DNA of 40,560 nt, taken from NCBI GenBank assembly GCA_021787615.1, contig JAJYLP010000024.1, forward strand, positions 1 to 40,560, in the 5' to 3' direction. Below the pieces are notes generated by a model that was not told the DNA's origin, did no database searches, and saw nothing but the letters and a program-made list of their open reading frames with translations. Of the stretch, positions 19,567 through 27,219 are shown piece after piece (positions within the stretch are counted from its first letter, which is position 1; every line of letters starts with the position of its first letter). This DNA is from Pseudomonadota bacterium (GTDB taxonomy: Bacteria > Pseudomonadota > Gammaproteobacteria > Steroidobacterales > Steroidobacteraceae). The translations under genes were made by a program, and so were the position numbers.

Positions 19567-19646
19567 ATCACCCCCTCCACTTTCCGCTCGTTCCGCCATA
19601 CCGGCACCCGGTTCAAGACGCCTTGCGCCGGCGTCCGGCGAAGAAC

Positions 19647-20403
19647 TCACGCATCGTCCGCACGCCCCGCGCGGTCGAGCCCCGTGGCCGCGACCCACTG
19701 GTCGTTGCAATACGTCGAGGCGTAACGCTCGCCCTGATCGCACAGCATCGACACCACCGAGCCGGCCAGGCCCCGTTTCGGCCAGCTCGCCGATCCGCTG
19801 CGCGCAGGCCCCGGGGACGGGTGCCGGTGGAGCCACCGCACACGCGCCCCAGCCGCTCCCTCAGCGCACGCTCCGCGGCGATGCCGTCGGCATCGCGCAC
19901 CACGACCACGCGATCGACCACGTCCGCAATGAACGACGGCTCGACCCGTGCTCGACCGATACCCCCGATGCCGCTCCGGCAGCGCTCGACCGAGGTCGCG
20001 GTGCGGTCGGCGAAGTCGCACTGCCCACACCGGAACTCGACGGCAGCGATCCGCTCCGCCGCCCTCGCACGGGGCACCACCGCGATGAAGCGCAGCCCAA
20101 GCATGCGCGCAAAGTACGCCTCGGAAACCGCAGTGGGGCCGCTCGATGCATCCACAACGGTCGTGTCGGGGCCAATCCAGCCGTTGCACAGCGCGTAGTA
20201 TGAGGATAGAGAGAACGGGCGAGCCTGTGCTTGAGGCTGCCGGTCGGCTGGCTCGACTCGTCCTGCAAGTACCGCTCGATCGCCGGGTAATGCACCAGCT
20301 CGGTCGGGATCCGATGCGTGTCGGCGGAACGCTTGAAATGCGCCTCGATCCGGCGGACCGCTTGGTCCGTCCAGGCCCGGCGGGCGCGCTCGGAATGGGG
20401 CAT
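19647..20403 (-). pseudogene. Broken PLP-dependent cysteine-synthase-family gene
   Basis: Three minus-strand frames together spell pieces of a fold-type II PLP enzyme of the CysK-like family. The start at 20403 gives [14 protein letters not shown] and the PLP lysine motif [11 protein letters not shown] second frame gives [19 protein letters not shown] through [14 protein letters not shown] and, after a jump, [19 protein letters not shown] third frame gives AGSVVSMLCDQGERYASTY to the stop at 19647. Compared with intact relatives, at least two frameshifts and an internal deletion of roughly 100-150 codons, covering the middle of the PLP domain, are needed. The gene cannot make a working enzyme. 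It sits between the esterase and the radical SAM gene. Family assignment is from memory of homologues. Confidence 0.8.
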
Positions 20404-20471: not shown

Positions 20472-20485
20472 TTGATCTCCGTCAA
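20472..20485. promoter_or_regulatory. FNR box upstream of the radical SAM gene
   Basis: TTGAT-CTCC-GTCAA matches the FNR/Anr consensus TTGAT-N4-ATCAA at nine of ten positions. Its centre is 106 bp before the ATG at 20585. Placing it at -41.5 (class II activation) puts the start of transcription near 20520, with TACCCT (20508-20513) in the -10 position and a leader of about 65 nt. Confidence 0.7.
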
Positions 20486-20584
20486 AAACCGCGGCCCGGC
20501 GCCGCATTACCCTGCGGCTGCTCACGCGAGCGCCGCGGCCGCGGGCCCGGCTCTTCCCCTCCCAAGCCATCCGCTCACAACCTC

Positions 20585-22462
20585 ATGCGCCTGCTGCTGA
20601 TCAATCCCAAATCGCCGGAGAGCTTCTGGAACTTCCACTGGGCCGTGAGCGAGGTGCTCGACGGCAAGCGTGCGGTCAATCCACCGCTCGGGCTCGCCAC
20701 CCTCGCCGCGTTGTGTCCGGCGCACTGGCAGGTGCGCATCGTCGATGAGAACGTCGAGCCGCTGCCGCTTGCTCCCGAGGCCGACCTGATCGGCATCTGC
20801 GGCATGGGCGTGCAGTTTCCGCGCCAGCGCGAGCTCATCGAGTACTACCGCGGACTCGGCCACTTCGTCGTGGTCGGCGGCAGCTTCGCCTCGCTGTGCC
20901 CCGAGCGCTACGAGGGGCTCGCCGATGCCGTCATCTCGGGGGAGGCCGAGCGCATCTGGCCGCGCTTCTGCGCCGAGTTCGAAGCCGGCGCCGCGCAGGC
21001 GCTGTACCGCGAGGACGGCATGATCAATCTGACGGACTCCCCGGTGCCGCGCTTCGACCTGCTGCGCCTCGATCTCTACACCACCGCGACGATGCAGTTC
21101 TCGCGCGGCTGTCCGTACCTGTGCGAGTTCTGCGACATCATCGTCATGTTCGGCCGCAAGCCGCGCCAGAAGGCTGTGGAGCAGGTCGGCCGCGAGCTCG
21201 ATGCGCTGCGCGCCCTCGGCGTGCGCAAGGTCTTCTTCGTCGATGACAACCTCATCGGCCATCGCGCGATCGCCAAGCAGCTGCTGCGCTTTCTCGCCGA
21301 CTATCAGCGCCACCACGATTACGCGTTCAGCTTCGGCACCGAGACCTCCCTGAATCTCGCCGAGGACGAGGAGCTGATGCGGCTGATGCGGGCGGCGGGC
21401 TTCCGCTGGACGTTCATCGGCATCGAATCCCCGGACGAGGCGAGCCTGCGCGAGATGCGCAAGGTGCAGAACATGCGCGCCGATGCGCTCGAGTCGGTGC
21501 ACCGCATCCACGGTCACGGCATCGAGGTGCTGGCCGGCTTCATCGTCGGCTTCGACAACGACACCGTCTCGACCTTCGAGCGCCAGTTTCAGTTCATCGC
21601 GCGCTCGGGGATCCAGACGGCCATGATCGGCCTGCTGCATGCCATGCCGCGCACGCCGCTCTACGAGCGGCTGCGCAAGGCCGGCCGCCTGCGCGACACC
21701 GACAGCGCCGGCGACAACACCAAGCTCGACACCAACGTCGAGCCGCTCAACATGAGCCGTGACGAGCTCATCGACGGCTACCGCGAGCTGCACCGGCGAC
21801 TGCTCGCCGACGCGGCCATCGCGCGGCGCATCCGCAGCAAATGCCGCTCGCTCGGGCGCCCGGCCGGCGGCATGGAATACTCCGCGGCGACCGGACTCGC
21901 CATCGTCGCTCGGCTGCTGTGGCGGGGCATCCTGCCCGGCGGGCCGGCCCGCCACTGGCACTTCCTGCGCACCATTCCGTGGCGCAAGCCCTGGCAGTTC
22001 GCGTTCGTGGTCGGCGACTGGATCGTCGGGCTGTCGATGCAGGACTATGCCCGCCGGCACTTCGGCGCCGCAGCCCGCGCGGACACGCAGGCCGGCAGTG
22101 AGCGCCTCGCGCGCCTGGCGCGCACCCTGCGCCGCCTGCGCGCCGGTCAGGTCTCGGTCAGTCCCGGCGCGCCTCAGCAGAGCGCGCTGATGCTCGATCT
22201 GCGGCTGCACGCGATGCCCGGCCGCGCCCTGCGTCGCATCGGCGCCGATCTCGGCGCGCTGCTGCGCGAGACGCCGGCGCGGCTGACGCTGAACATCGAT
22301 CAGGTCAGCGGCGCGGACCTGCCGCGCATGCGCCGGCTGCTGCGCCGCCTACGCCGCTTCGCCGACCGCATCTCGATCGAGCCCGGCTCGCTGCACGCCC
22401 CGATGCTCTCGCAGGCATGGCCGTTCCAGCTGCGGCTGCGCGTGAGCGCGCCCGGCGCGTGA
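20585..22462 (+). CDS. B12-binding-domain radical SAM protein (DUF4070-type)
   Basis: A 625-residue protein. Residues 1-140 form a cobalamin-binding-type Rossmann domain starting MRLLLINPKSPESFW; the DxHxxG B12 ligand motif is absent, as in several members. The radical SAM core starts near 165 and binds its 4Fe-4S cluster through CPYLCEFC (Cys176, Cys180, Cys183). VDDNLIGH, FGTETSLNLAEDEE and FIVGFDND are further core motifs. Next comes a DUF4070-like region (about 400-510), and then a basic C-terminal domain of about 100 residues (RLRRLRRFADRISIEPGS). The architecture resembles hopanoid methylase HpnP and its relatives, but the substrate cannot be read. The ATG at 20585 is chosen from homology. 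An FNR box upstream implies expression at low oxygen. Confidence 0.85.
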   Translation: MRLLLINPKSPESFWNFHWAVSEVLDGKRAVNPPLGLATLAALCPAHWQVRIVDENVEPLPLAPEADLIGICGMGVQFPRQRELIEYYRGLGHFVVVGGSFASLCPERYEGLADAVISGEAERIWPRFCAEFEAGAAQALYREDGMINLTDSPVPRFDLLRLDLYTTATMQFSRGCPYLCEFCDIIVMFGRKPRQKAVEQVGRELDALRALGVRKVFFVDDNLIGHRAIAKQLLRFLADYQRHHDYAFSFGTETSLNLAEDEELMRLMRAAGFRWTFIGIESPDEASLREMRKVQNMRADALESVHRIHGHGIEVLAGFIVGFDNDTVSTFERQFQFIARSGIQTAMIGLLHAMPRTPLYERLRKAGRLRDTDSAGDNTKLDTNVEPLNMSRDELIDGYRELHRRLLADAAIARRIRSKCRSLGRPAGGMEYSAATGLAIVARLLWRGILPGGPARHWHFLRTIPWRKPWQFAFVVGDWIVGLSMQDYARRHFGAAARADTQAGSERLARLARTLRRLRAGQVSVSPGAPQQSALMLDLRLHAMPGRALRRIGADLGALLRETPARLTLNIDQVSGADLPRMRRLLRRLRRFADRISIEPGSLHAPMLSQAWPFQLRLRVSAPGA

Positions 22463-22468
22463 GGGCCC

Positions 22469-23206
22469 TCAGGCGATTCCGCCGCCGAGCGCCGCGAGCG
22501 CATCGGGCTGCAGGACGCTGATGTCCCGCGCCCGCACCCGCAGCCAGCCTTCCCTCTTGAAGGTGCCAAGGGCGCGGCTGACGGTCTCGAGCGTCAGCCC
22601 CAGATGGCGCGCGATGTCGGCGCGGCTCATGCTCAGGCGGAACTCGGTCGGGGACAGTCCGCGCCGCGCCAGGCGATGCGACAGATCGGCCAGGAAATGC
22701 GCGACGCGGCCGCGGGCATCGCTCTGCGCGAGCTCCCCGCGCAGCCGCTGCGACTCATCGAGCGCCTGACCGAGCAGGCGCAGAATCTCGTGCCGCAGTC
22801 CCGGCAACCGCTCGAGCAGCTGCTCGAGCTTGCGGATCGGAACGCGGCAGTAGCTGAGCGGCTCGAGCGCGCTGACCTCGCACGTATAGCGGCCGCTCGC
22901 GAAGCCCTCCAGGCCAATAGCCTCCCCGGGCAGCACGAAGCCGTGGACCTGCTCGCCTCCGCCGAGCGTCACGCTATAGCGCTTCGCCGAGCCGCTGCGC
23001 ACCACGAACAGCGCGCCCATCGGCTCCCCGGCGCGCACCAGGGTGACCCCGGGGCGCAGCTGCCGCCCGCGCTGCACAGCCGCCTCGAGCGCGCGGGCCT
23101 CCTCGCTCGGCAGGTGGGCGGGCAGACAAATCGCCTGCAGCGCGCACTCCCGGCAGGACACCCCGGGCGGCGCGCCCGCTTCGATCGCTTGACGTCTGAT
23201 GCTCAC
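22469..23206 (-). CDS. fnr: FNR/Anr-type oxygen-sensing transcription regulator
   Basis: A 245-residue Crp/Fnr protein. The 4Fe-4S oxygen-sensing ligands are all present: Cys18, Cys21 and Cys27 in SCRECALQAICLP, and Cys120 in YCRVPI (the counterpart of E. coli Cys122). The cyclic-nucleotide-type beta barrel spans about 40-140. The recognition helix ETVSRAL (Glu207, Ser210, Arg211) is the E--SR signature that reads TTGAT half sites. The GTG at 23206 is preferred because the alternative ATG at 23266 lies inside the FNR box; no Shine-Dalgarno is seen. A TATACT -10 candidate (23220-23215) lies just upstream and would give a nearly leaderless transcript. It is divergent from ubiT and convergent with the radical SAM gene. 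Confidence 0.93.
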   Translation of the reverse strand: MSIRRQAIEAGAPPGVSCRECALQAICLPAHLPSEEARALEAAVQRGRQLRPGVTLVRAGEPMGALFVVRSGSAKRYSVTLGGGEQVHGFVLPGEAIGLEGFASGRYTCEVSALEPLSYCRVPIRKLEQLLERLPGLRHEILRLLGQALDESQRLRGELAQSDARGRVAHFLADLSHRLARRGLSPTEFRLSMSRADIARHLGLTLETVSRALGTFKREGWLRVRARDISVLQPDALAALGGGIA

Positions 23207-23259: not shown

Positions 23260-23300
23260 TTGACATGGATCAAGTTTTGCACCACCCCGCCCGCTAGCAT
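23260..23300 (+). promoter_or_regulatory. FNR-dependent promoter of ubiT (shared with fnr)
   Basis: FNR box TTGAC-ATGG-ATCAA at 23260-23273 (nine of ten positions) followed, 21 nt later, by the -10 candidate TAGCAT at 23295-23300. A class II layout places transcription initiation at 23307-23308, which is the A or T of the ubiT ATG. Seen from fnr, the same box is centred about 58 bp before the predicted start, a class I-like distance, so autoregulation is possible. Confidence 0.72.
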
Positions 23301-23306
23301 GAGTGC

Positions 23307-23810
23307 ATGATCTCGCTCCTGCCGCGTCGTCCGCCGTCGCTTGCGGATCTCGATCCGTTGAGTGAACTGTTCGCACGCCTGTTCAACCACTGGGCGCGCG
23401 GCCAGGCGATCGGCGGGGCGCTTGAGGCGCTCGAGGGTAAGCGGGTGCGCATCCGCCTCACCGACGCCCCGCTGCAGCTGAACCTGCTGGTCACCGGCGG
23501 GGCCCTGAAGGCGGCCGCCGGGCGCGACGAGCCGCACGTCACCCTGCGCGGGCGGCTCACGGACTTTGCGCGGCTCGCCACCCGCGCCGAGGATCCCGAT
23601 ACGCTGTTCTTTCAGCGTCGGCTGAGCCTGGAAGGCGAGACCGAGACGGGCCTGGCCATCAAGAACGCGCTCGATGCGCTCGAGTGGGACTGGCGGCGCC
23701 ACCTCGCGGCGCTCGTACCCGATGGTGCCGCGCAGCTGCTGCGCTCGGTGCTGCGGCCGCTGCCGCCCCCGCCACGCGGCCCGTTCGGGCGCCATCGACC
23801 GCCGCATTAG
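23307..23810 (+). CDS. ubiT: Ubiquinone biosynthesis accessory factor UbiT (SCP2 domain)
   Basis: A 167-residue protein consisting mostly of an SCP2 sterol-carrier-like lipid-binding domain (about 20-130; RLTDAPLQLNLLVTGG, DEPHVTLRGRLTDFARLA, LFFQRRLSLEGETETGL). UbiT is required, with UbiU and UbiV, for oxygen-independent ubiquinone synthesis in proteobacteria and is thought to handle the lipid intermediates. The ATG at 23307 matches homologues and has no Shine-Dalgarno. A three-codon open frame (ATG at 23299, stop at 23308-23310) overlaps it. Promoter geometry implies a leaderless mRNA. It runs toward ubiV, with 4 nt between the stops. Confidence 0.9.
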   Translation: MISLLPRRPPSLADLDPLSELFARLFNHWARGQAIGGALEALEGKRVRIRLTDAPLQLNLLVTGGALKAAAGRDEPHVTLRGRLTDFARLATRAEDPDTLFFQRRLSLEGETETGLAIKNALDALEWDWRRHLAALVPDGAAQLLRSVLRPLPPPPRGPFGRHRPPH

Positions 23811-23814
23811 GCCC

Positions 23815-24678
23815 TCAGCGGCGGGCCTCGAGCAGCGGGCCGCTGCAATAGCCGCCCGGCAATGCGCTCGCCGGACACTCCACGGCGCGCTCCCCGCGCA
23901 CCGCATGCGCGAATGCCTCGATCACCTGCGCGAACGGCACCGCCGCATCCGAATGCGGCGAGAGCCGCAGCATCTGCACGCCGGCGCTCTCGAACTCGTT
24001 CACGCGATCGATGAGATTGCGCACCTGGGCCGACTGCGCCTGCACTCCATTCAGCGCGAACAACGGCTCGTGCTCACGCGTGTAGACGGTCAGGCCGTCG
24101 CGGTCCTCCCCGCACACGAAGCTGCAATCGTCCTTGTTCTGTCGCCGCACACGCGCGCTGAAGCAGCGGGCGGAGAACGCAAGCGGCATGCGCCCGTAGG
24201 CGAACACCTCGCACTCCATGCCGTCGGGCCGCTCGGCGAGCAGCTCGGCGAGCGCCGCCGCATCGAGCTCGAGCGGCGCCACCCAGCGCCGCGCGCCGAG
24301 CGCGCCGAGCAGCCGCAGCGTCTGCCCGTTGTAGACATTCAGATGCGGACCGGCGACGAACGGCCGGCCGCCGGCGAGCTGCACCGCCGCCATGTCGTTC
24401 GCCTCGATCGTCACGCTCGCACTGACGATGCGCGCGAGCGCCGCGAGCTCCGACTCGGCCTCCATCAGCGCCAGGGTCGAGAAGATCACCTCCTTGCCGG
24501 CGGCGCTGAGCTCGCTGGCGATCGCCGCCCAGTCGGCCTGCTTCAGCGCCCTGCGCTTGGAGCACACGACCTCACCGAGATAGACGCTGTCCACCGGGGC
24601 CGGCGCGAGCGCGCGATAGAACGCGAACACGTCCGAGCGCTCCCAGTAGTACAGCAGCGGACCGACCGACAGCTTCAT
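23815..24678 (-). CDS. ubiV: Oxygen-independent ubiquinone hydroxylation factor UbiV
   Basis: A 287-residue U32-peptidase-family protein. The four cysteines that bind the 4Fe-4S cluster in E. coli UbiV are all present with the same spacing: Cys39 (EVVCSKR), Cys172, Cys185 and Cys189 (SARCFSA through DDCSFVCG). UbiV forms a heterodimer with UbiU and hydroxylates ubiquinone precursors without O2, using prephenate as oxygen donor in the described pathway. It is the last gene of ubiD-ubiU-ubiV, 13 nt after ubiU. Confidence 0.93.
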   Translation of the reverse strand: MKLSVGPLLYYWERSDVFAFYRALAPAPVDSVYLGEVVCSKRRALKQADWAAIASELSAAGKEVIFSTLALMEAESELAALARIVSASVTIEANDMAAVQLAGGRPFVAGPHLNVYNGQTLRLLGALGARRWVAPLELDAAALAELLAERPDGMECEVFAYGRMPLAFSARCFSARVRRQNKDDCSFVCGEDRDGLTVYTREHEPLFALNGVQAQSAQVRNLIDRVNEFESAGVQMLRLSPHSDAAVPFAQVIEAFAHAVRGERAVECPASALPGGYCSGPLLEARR

Positions 24679-24691
24679 CGCTCAACGCCTC

Positions 24692-25705
24692 CTATTGCCA
24701 GGGCCTGCTGTAGGCCCCCAGTGTGTGCGTGTGCCCCTCGGTGAGCCGCTCGAGAGCTGCGGCGTGCACCGCGGGCGGGCGATAGCTCGCCGGATCGCGC
24801 CGGCAGGCATCGAGCGCGGCGCGCAGCGCGCGGGTGACCTGCGCCACGTATGCCGGGCTGCGCTGGCGGCCCTCGACCTTGATGGCGCTGACGCCGGCGG
24901 CCATCAGCTGCGGCAGGATGTCGAGCACGTTGAGGCTCACGGGCTCCTCCAACGCGTGCATAATCGAGCCGAGCGCCTCGAAGCGGCCCTTGCACAGCGT
25001 CGGGTACCCGGCCGCCTCTCCCGGCGCGAACTCATCGATGAGCACGCCGTTGAGGCGAGCCTGCCGGCCGCTCGGCCGCTCGACCCAGCGCACCGCGTGC
25101 GCCGGCGAGCACACCCCGTGGGTATTCGGCGACTCGCCGGTCACGTGCGCCGAGAGCGCGCAGCGGCCCTCGACCATGATGCACAGACTGCCGAAGCCAA
25201 ACACCTCGATCTCCAGTCCGCTGCGCTCGATCACCCGCTCGACCTGCGCCACCGACAGCACCCGCGGCAGCACCGCGCGGCGGATTCCGAAGCGCTCGCG
25301 GTAGAACTGCAGCGCCTGCCAGTTGCTCGCCGATCCCTGCACCGAGAGGTGCCGGCTGACACCCGCATGACGCTCGGCCGCATAGGCGAGCAGCCCCGCG
25401 TCGGCGAGGATGAGCGCATCGGCGCCGATCTCGGCTGCGGCATCGACCGCCGCGGTGGCCGCCGCCCAGCGGCTCGGCGACGGATAGACGTTGAGGGCGA
25501 CGAAGACCCGAGCGCCGCGCCGGTGGGCGTACTCGATGCCGCTGCGCGCATCGGCGGCGGAGAAATTCAATCCGGGAAAGTTGCGCGCGTTCAATCCATC
25601 GCGGAACCCGAGGTACACCGCGTCCGCTCCGTTGTCGACCGCAGCATGCAGCGCCGGGAGGCTCCCGGCCGGACAGACCAGCTCGATCCCGCTGCGGTCA
25701 GCCAT
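24692..25705 (-). CDS. ubiU: Oxygen-independent ubiquinone hydroxylation factor UbiU
   Basis: A 337-residue U32-family protein. Iron-sulfur ligands Cys175, Cys182, Cys199 and Cys238 ([32 protein letters not shown]) have intervals of 7, 17 and 39 residues, the same as I recall for E. coli Ubi[13 protein letters not shown] segment near the C-terminus is also typical. The start overlaps the ubiD stop by 8 nt, indicating translational coupling. Confidence 0.94.
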
Positions 25706-27170
25706 GACTCATGCACTCGCGCCACAGCGCATCGACGCGCTGCTCGACCGCCGCATCGAGCCGGATCGGGCGGCCCCACTCGCGCGAGCTCTCCCCCGGC
25801 CATTTGTGCGTCGCATCCAGACCGAGCTTCGAGCCGAGTCCGCTCACGGGACTGGCGAAGTCGAGATAGTCGATCGGTGTGTTCTCGACCAGCATTGCAT
25901 CGCGCGCCGGATCGACCCGCGTGGCCACCGCCCAGATTACCTCCTGCCAGTTGCGCACATCGATGTCCTCGTCGGTGACGATGACGAACTTGGTGTAGGT
26001 GAACTGGCGCAGGTACGACCAGATCGACATCATGATGCGGCGCGCGTGGCCCGGGTACTGTTTGCGGATGCTGACCACCGCGAGGCGATAGGAGCACGCC
26101 TCGGGCGGCAGGTAGAAGTCGAGGACCTCCGGAAACACGCGCCGCAGGATCGGCACGAACACCTCGTTCAGCGCGAGCGCCATCACCGAGGGCTCATCGT
26201 GCGGCGAGCGGCCCATGTAACTGCCCTGATAGATCGCCCCGTCGCGCAGATGCATGCGCTCCAGGGTGAGCACGGGAAAGTCGGCCTGGGAGTTGTAGTA
26301 GCCGGTGTGATCGCCGAACGGACCCTCGCGGGCCGTATCGCCCGGCCGGATGAAGCCCTCCAGGACGATCTCCGCCCCCGCCGGCGCATCGAGTCCGGTG
26401 AGCTCGCAGCGCACGACGTTGCTGCGCTCCCCGCGCAGCAGGCCGGCAAACTCATACTCCGAGAGCGTGTCCGGAATGGGCGCCGCGGCCGCGAGCACCG
26501 TCGCCGGATCGGCGCCGATGGCGATCAGCACCGGGAAGGGCTGCCCGGGGCGGTCCGCCTGCCAATCGGCGAAGTCGCCCGCTCCGCCGCGGTGCGCGAG
26601 CCAGCGCATGATCACCCGATCCCGCCCGAGCACCTGTTGGCGGTAAACCGCCACGTTCTGGCGCTCCTTGCGCGGCCCGCGCGTCACCACCAGACCGAGC
26701 GTGATCAGCCGTGCGACATCCTCGGGCCAGCAGCGCTGAATTGGCAGGCGCGCGAGGTCGATCTGCCCGCCGCCGAGCGTATGCTCCTGAAACGGCGCGC
26801 GCGCCACGCGCCGCGGCGCGACGTGCGCCAGCTGCGCGAACTGCGGCCAGCTGGCGAGCGCCTCACGCACGTTCGACGGCCAGTGCGGCTCCTTCAGCGC
26901 CGCGAGCAGCTCGCCGAGCTCGCGCAGCGCGCCGGCGCCCTCGCGCCCGAGCGCCGCCTCGATCCGACGCGCATGGCCGAATACGTTGCCGAGCAGCGCA
27001 TGGTGTGCGCCGGCGGGCCGCTCGAACAGCAGCGCCGGACCCGCCTGGCGCAGGGCGCGCAGGCAGAACGAGGTGCTTTCCAGCTCGGGGCTGACCGGGA
27101 CAGTAACGCGGCGCAGATCGCCTCGCTCTTCCAGGTGCGCGAGAAACGTGCGCAGATCGTGAAATGCCAT
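25698..27170 (-). CDS. ubiD: UbiD-family prFMN-dependent decarboxylase
   Basis: A 490-residue member of the UbiD family, most likely 3-octaprenyl-4-hydroxybenzoate decarboxylase of ubiquinone synthesis. It starts [21 protein letters not shown] like other UbiD proteins. [19 protein letters not shown] and the conserved [12 protein letters not shown] (about 281-292, with the catalytic-region acid) are present, and the length agrees with E. coli UbiD. It needs prenylated FMN from a UbiX not seen here. It is the first gene of ubiD-ubiU-ubiV. There is no Shine-Dalgarno before the ATG, and an FNR promoter would start transcription one base upstream of it. Confidence 0.93.
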
Positions 27171-27178
27171 CCGCGCGG

Positions 27179-27219
27179 ACGCTAGCGCACCGCGCGCGTG
27201 CGGATTTGACGCGGATCAA
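27179..27219 (-). promoter_or_regulatory. FNR-dependent promoter of ubiD-ubiU-ubiV
   Basis: The FNR box at 27219-27206 reads TTGAT-CCGC-GTCAA on the minus strand (nine of ten positions). The -10 candidate TAGCGT is at 27184-27179, exactly 21 nt from the box, the same gap as in the ubiT promoter. Initiation is predicted at about 27171, one base before the ubiD ATG. Confidence 0.72.

Follow-up and report, generated by a model that had tools for sequence, protein, structure and literature searches.

Control by FNR has been shown for the ubiUV and ubiT genes of Escherichia coli (PMC10470549) and has been predicted across the Pseudomonadota (PMC11707229). The transcription starts mapped in E. coli lie 33 nucleotides (nt; ubiT promoter P2) and 36 nt (ubiUV) downstream of the FNR site (PMC10470549), distances that are taken here as counted from the box edge. 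The start codons of E. coli ubiT and ubiUV are situated 58 and 80 nt from the box and have Shine-Dalgarno-like GGGAG and AGGA sequences. In Rhodobacter capsulatus the ubiD-X genes are needed for growth only without oxygen (PMC10626278). Gammaproteobacteria are reported to have small numbers of leaderless mRNAs, for example the 14 listed for Yersinia pseudotuberculosis (PMC4376681). The present analysis concerns ubiT, the ubiD-ubiU-ubiV operon and the neighbouring fnr gene in a stretch of 40,560 nt (the window) of contig JAJYLP010000024.1 from a genome of the Steroidobacteraceae. FNR control of ubiTUV is already known, and what is new at this locus is the predicted leaderless layout; no report of leaderless FNR-driven ubi genes was found among the top-ranked matches of the literature searches. 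As in the survey of ubiTUV in Pseudomonadota, FNR control is predicted here for ubiT and for the first ubi gene of the operon; the survey's section on FNR sites gives their shares and median positions and is silent on leaderless starts, and "ubiD" occurs 0 times in its main text (PMC11707229).

The two promoters and the genes that follow them are the following.

23260..23273, plus strand: FNR box of ubiT, TTGACATGGATCAA, with 9 of 10 consensus bases
23295..23300, plus strand: -10 element of ubiT, TAGCAT, 21 nt past the box
23307..23810, plus strand: ubiT, with SCP2 domain, UbiT equivalog; its ATG is the predicted +1 and has no Shine-Dalgarno sequence
27219-27206, minus strand: FNR box of ubiD, TTGATCCGCGTCAA, with 9 of 10 consensus bases
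27184-27179, minus strand: -10 element of ubiD, TAGCGT, 21 nt past the box
25698..27170, minus strand: ubiD, head of the ubiD-ubiU-ubiV operon; ATG at 27170, 8 nt past the -10, with no Shine-Dalgarno sequence

The ATG of ubiT follows its -10 by 6 nt and lies 33 nt from the box edge, and that of ubiD lies 35 nt from the box edge. An initial annotation of the window had described a box with nine of ten consensus bases, a gap of exactly 21 nt and a TAGC(A/G)T -10 in both promoters, and direct reading with a re-check bears this description out. Transcription is expected to begin 7 nt after the last base of a -10 element. By this rule the predicted +1 of ubiT is the A of its ATG (leader of 0 nt) and that of ubiD is 2 nt 5' of its ATG (leader of 2 nt), so that initiation within about one base of the ATG, as the annotation had it, holds for ubiT and is slightly tight for ubiD. 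The box centre is then predicted at -40.5; a +1 one base later would move it to -41.5. Both promoters have the TTGAT-N4-ATCAA box and, counted from the predicted +1, a -10 in register and a centre near -41.5; by these features they are candidate FNR-dependent promoters of class II.

None of the words GGAG, GAGG and AGGA occurs at -20..-4 of ubiT or ubiD in the window, which agrees with the earlier claim that both genes lack a Shine-Dalgarno sequence; elsewhere in the genome such sequences are in use (77/198 starts against 15/198 in a control interval). With an AUG start and no Shine-Dalgarno sequence, ubiT and ubiD resemble leaderless genes. RNA structure is weak at the 5' ends of ubiT and ubiD (-10.5 and -7.3 kcal/mol; the internal means are -15.2 and -16.6), but a similar value (-11.5) is obtained for ubiV, which is led by a Shine-Dalgarno sequence.

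The explanation that we favour, and consider probable as a whole, is that the Fnr protein encoded beside ubiT switches on ubiT and ubiD-ubiU-ubiV at low oxygen from class II promoters that yield leaderless mRNAs. Fnr would bind the single box, which would replace the -35 element, RNA polymerase would take the -10 located 21 nt past the box, and transcription would begin on the ATG or within about 2 nt of it. The mRNAs would then have neither leader nor Shine-Dalgarno sequence and would be translated by leaderless initiation at the 5'-terminal AUG. The box, the spacing, the -10, the absent Shine-Dalgarno sequence, the distances across the genus and the co-occurrence with fnr are computed features; from them we infer that Fnr binds, where transcription starts and that ubiT and ubiD are translated without a leader.

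By analogy with the mapped start sites of the E. coli ubi genes, transcription should start at or beside the ATG of ubiT and ubiD. The E. coli promoters ubiT P2 and ubiUV have in common with the window the genes, the regulator family and one FNR box lying 33-36 nt upstream of the start, which is mapped there and predicted here (PMC10470549). They differ in that the ATGs of the window lie at 33 and 35 nt from the box without a Shine-Dalgarno sequence, and in that ubiD heads the operon here. The promoter geometry is thus shared, but it leaves a leader in E. coli and is predicted to leave almost none in the window. The Yersinia pseudotuberculosis leaderless mRNAs are comparable in their 5' untranslated region of less than 10 nt (predicted here), the missing ribosome-binding site and the AUG; the genes considered here differ in forming the set of one oxygen regulator that is kept in relatives and includes some GTG starts (fnr and a DUF3079 gene) (PMC4376681).

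A protein search, which gave ubiT in 15 of 37 genus genomes, a UbiU scan of named genomes and the pattern search supplied the relatives within the genus, and 58 genus genomes were searched for the promoter pattern, fnr, UbiU and UbiD. The named relatives closest to the genome of the window are assemblies from metagenomes. All 18 genomes with UbiD by protein search carry a separately found box-21-TANNNT unit that ends, by coordinates, exactly 8 nt before the ubiD start; 17 of them were also read directly, the gene of G024 being off the fetched stretch. In the 22 stretches with ubiT the spacer is 21 nt (19) or 22 nt (3), and the ATG is 6 nt (16) or 7 nt (6) past the -10. For the direct reading the best-matching box was taken and any of 8 offsets (18-25) was allowed for TANNNT, which is located at offset 21 or 22 in 39/39 rows of ubiT and ubiD taken together. 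The box-to-ATG distance in relatives, which had been set beforehand as a test, is kept in 18/18 ubiD genes and within one or two bases in 22/22 ubiT genes. No Shine-Dalgarno sequence is found at the ubiD ATG in 17/17 genus rows, nor at the ubiT ATG in 19/22, the exceptions (G023, G024 and G026) being purine-rich there.

The spacers have a mean identity of 0.53 in both ubiT and ubiD, and pairwise alignments of the 60 nt that precede the box contain gaps in 111/136 pairs for ubiD and 92/136 for ubiT. Despite these gapped flanks, the box-to-ATG segment of ubiD has one length in all 17 rows. As the spacers have diverged and the distances have been kept, mere descent or chance is disfavoured as the origin of the layout.

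The conserved distances also bear on the precise position of +1. The position -41.5 is the textbook one for class II, and it falls on the T of the ubiT ATG. Were transcription to begin 1-2 nt within the ATG, which would put the box at -41.5 or -42.5, the FNR transcript of ubiT would have no intact first codon and translation would start further in. We regard this as very unlikely, as all rows read have the ATG 6-7 nt (ubiT) or 8 nt (ubiD) past the -10, and E. coli UbiD aligns end to end (E 1.5e-205) from the first Met of the window UbiD, whose gene would retain its AUG even with a shifted +1.

Outside the genus, where start codons are often ambiguous and some boxes have 8/10 bases only, 23 ubiT rows have a box. 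A possible start at 32-39 nt from it is seen in 4 of them (L058, L062, L069 and L078), 15 have a possible one at 48-64 nt and would be leadered, and 4 have neither. Six ubiD rows have a box, with the start at 34-37 nt in three (L058, L070 and L078) and at 27 nt in three.

The regulator gene and its own start are placed as follows.

22469..23206, minus strand: fnr, divergent from ubiT and starting with GTG; its product has a Cys triad near the N-terminus, one more Cys and an ETVSR recognition helix
23215..23220, minus strand: TATACT, candidate -10 of fnr, 8 nt 5' of the GTG; the ubiT box is 39 nt upstream of it

In an alignment of the fnr product to the Fnr chain 9qlt (E 9.7e-47), both the Cys triad and the ETVSR helix fall on their counterparts. 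An N-terminal Cys triad and an E-SR recognition helix are what we take to be Fnr-type motifs. For the fourth cluster ligand a Cys sits two residues off the aligned column of 9qlt, and the protein scores 184.3 bits against the cut-off of 228 bits of the NCBIfam Fnr model NF008365. With a limit of E 1e-40, 26 of the 58 genus genomes encode such an fnr. The promoter pattern has a match in 26/26 genomes with fnr and in 10/32 without it (Fisher p 1.2e-8). Over all 58 genomes it gives 116 matches against 17 for the reversed control, that is 92 against 7 in fnr genomes and 24 against 10 in the others. The fnr gene itself looks leaderless: read by eye, TANNNT is situated 8 nt before the start in 13/17 rows and 6, 7, 10 and 10 nt before it in the other four.

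The divergent arrangement and the origin of all close relatives from one genus would suit the view that the layout is inherited or fortuitous and the boxes unused, or that the ubiT box, which has the candidate fnr -10 on its other side, serves fnr alone. We give this view almost no credence: the ubiD box has no divergent fnr, every fnr genome has matches, and the spacers, but not the distances, have diverged.

The boxes are also in excess over chance. In the window, 15 boxes with at most 2 mismatches are found against 3.4 (sd 1.8) in shuffled sequences, and 15 was reached by 0/100 shuffles. Boxes with at most 1 mismatch number 62 in the genome against 8 for the reversed pattern. A box followed after 20-22 nt by TANNNT occurs 4 times in the genome and 0 times in the reversed control. 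Three of these four units are in the window, in front of ubiT, ubiD and a radical-SAM gene, and the fourth precedes a DUF3079 gene elsewhere (L130). This DUF3079 gene, found from position 1549 of L130 (G000 contig 79), is a third FNR-linked leaderless candidate in the genome: besides the FNR box it has a GTG that stands 6 nt past the -10. The radical-SAM gene and its promoter are located as given below.

20472..20513, plus strand: FNR box, 22 nt and TACCCT, a promoter of the same type 5' of the B12/radical-SAM gene; the likely ATG is 71 nt further (leadered contrast)
20585..22462, plus strand: B12-binding radical SAM protein with DUF4070, a leadered member of the FNR set

Among the 116 genus matches, 49 were read on 40 stretches chosen by -10 type and locus, and thus not at random. 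Starts 5-8 nt past the -10 recur in ubiT, ubiD, DUF3079 genes (G000, G068, G029 and G006), hemerythrin-like genes (G003 and G069) and nadA (G066, G067, G071, G035 and G014); from each of the last three groups, one or two members were put through Pfam. In the five nadA genomes (L182-L185 and L187) the FNR-type promoter is followed by a leaderless start 5-7 nt past the -10 and a similar 5' coding stretch. The N-terminal extension so encoded is similar in all five, and therefore a later start is possible. In G065 (L181) a nadA-like 5' stretch is in frame with a radical-SAM gene instead. No Rfam family was found at the nadA-type 5' ends of L180-L187, the sole match being a cobalamin riboswitch elsewhere in L186.

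The proposal that every class II FNR promoter of this lineage is leaderless is rejected by the radical-SAM gene, which is mostly leadered: its likely MRLLL start follows the -10 by 71 nt in the window and by 29-81 nt in relatives, with an in-frame ATG also at 7 nt in G065 (L181) and G006 (L218). No clear leaderless start is seen in nine stretches (L193, L197-L200, L203, L204, L206 and L219), and in L180 and L186 an ATG 6-7 nt past the -10 opens reading frames of 43 and 114 codons only.

Nor is leaderlessness special to ubi genes, given the similar starts of fnr, DUF3079, hemerythrin and nadA genes and a genome-wide peak of TANNNT. In a 440-kb sample of the genome TANNNT occurs at -16..-11 before 14/228 starts and 11 times in 15 flanking offsets. 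Just before the starts it occurs in 10/198 against 2.3 expected, the two totals of starts reflecting different training rules. With the same script E. coli has TANNNT at 4/91 starts against 8.7 expected, with no peak. The excess of leaderless-type starts over background in the sample is about 4% of gene starts. As other FNR targets and this share of sampled starts look alike, we consider it most likely that this lineage makes general use of leaderless starts, the FNR regulon being set within that practice, and that they are not a device specific to ubiquinone. Of the oxygen-responsive leaderless ubiquinone regulon envisaged in the initial annotation, the FNR side is thus supported by the co-occurrence with fnr, and starts of the leaderless type are not confined to ubi genes.

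A number of observations weigh against Fnr-driven leaderless expression of the two ubi units. The start sites of ubiT and ubiD are predicted from the -10 position and the box spacing, and TAGCAT and TAGCGT match TATAAT weakly. The genomes used for conservation belong to one genus and are therefore not independent. Five of the 22 ubiT stretches (G012, G067, G068, G069 and G071, with G012 anchored by hand) were found only via the pattern and hence lend no independent support to the ubiT box and -10. The ubiT box of G011 is degraded (7/10). GGAGGG stands directly 5' of the ubiT ATG in G023 and G026, and AGGA at -11 overlaps the ubiT -10 in G023 and G024, in each case upstream of the predicted +1. 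In the gap-alignment run the script accepted only rows with the box ends, TANNNT and the ubiD spacing; the invariant box ends, the -10 bases T1, A2 and T6 and the gapless box-to-ATG segment in that run are therefore imposed by the search rule and are not evidence. In the same run 4/21 ubiT stretches (G003, G018, G067 and G069) failed the protein filter, and 3 of the remaining 17 rows, having 48 nt, were left out of the column count. A good part of the 49 matches have no leaderless start, and therefore the promoter type does not force one. The 14 genome-wide leaderless candidates show no -35 excess (2.36 against 2.29). A second, leadered promoter of ubiT is possible, as E. coli ubiT has two, of which P1 is aerobic (PMC10470549).

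The last point leads to the main competing view, that the class II FNR promoters are real but translation proceeds from a leadered transcript of another upstream promoter, the FNR transcript adding little protein. As ubiD has a single match in the genome, which also encodes two UbiH/UbiI-type hydroxylases that score above the cut-off, some aerobic expression of ubiD might be needed. A longer transcript, however, gains nothing obvious where the Shine-Dalgarno sequence is lacking (17/17 ubiD and 19/22 ubiT rows). Among the 58 genus genomes, UbiD (E 1e-30) was found wherever UbiU (E 1e-60) was, namely in 18, and nowhere among the 40 without UbiU, and a purely anaerobic role of UbiD fits this confinement. 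We hold expression from a leadered transcript to be unlikely, and prefer leaderless expression from the FNR promoters.

The rest of the operon and the contrasting start of ubiV are as follows.

24692..25705, minus strand: ubiU, whose start overlaps the end of ubiD
23815..24678, minus strand: ubiV, internal contrast led by a Shine-Dalgarno sequence, AGGAGG at 24693-24688

In the window ubiT faces ubiD-ubiU-ubiV. UbiT, UbiU and UbiV all score above their NCBIfam equivalog cut-offs, and the trio of the oxygen-independent ubiquinone pathway is therefore present together. UbiD passes the UbiD subfamily cut-off and misses that of the equivalog (719.5 against 788 bits). In G067 (95% complete) ubiT with an FNR promoter (L205) has been observed, with no UbiU or UbiD at E 1e-60 and E 1e-30 respectively.

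UbiX over its family cut-off is found in 3/58 genus genomes. Of the 18 that encode UbiD, G026 alone has one, beside a second UbiD-like gene; in the other 17, including the genome of the window, none over this cut-off was found. Incomplete assemblies may explain single absences, but hardly 17 of 18. In 40 genomes the UbiX model has some match; in most of the remainder of these it is weak (20-30 bits), covers the first part of the model and lies in open frames of 414-542 codons, which we presume to be CoaBC. COQ4, considered as an aerobic decarboxylase, has no match in the genome of the window and has two in the 58 genus genomes, both just over the cut-off. The locus resembles UbiD-X of R. capsulatus in that UbiD would serve the oxygen-free branch together with UbiUV; it differs in that ubiX is in the ubiD operon there (PMC10626278), while the search here gave no UbiX that exceeds the family cut-off.

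An extended proposal, for which we see the chances as evenly balanced, is that of a genus-wide oxygen-controlled leaderless regulon comprising Fnr, ubiT, ubiDUV, DUF3079, hemerythrin and nadA genes, with start codons on the transcription start. Anaerobiosis would shift part of translation to leaderless initiation, and UbiD would be an anaerobic-only decarboxylase that needs no recognisable UbiX. If this is true, the binding site of an oxygen sensor fixes the start codon directly, which gives a compact oxygen-responsive gene without a ribosome-binding site, and the lineage provides a natural test of whether low-oxygen cells favour leaderless translation. A group with UbiD in the oxygen-free branch only would also be relevant to the identity of the enzyme that decarboxylates the ubiquinone ring under aerobic conditions.

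Adjoining the radical-SAM gene, a cysteine-synthase-like gene (window 19613-20403, minus strand) is apparently split into two frames; by eye it is intact in the relative L035.

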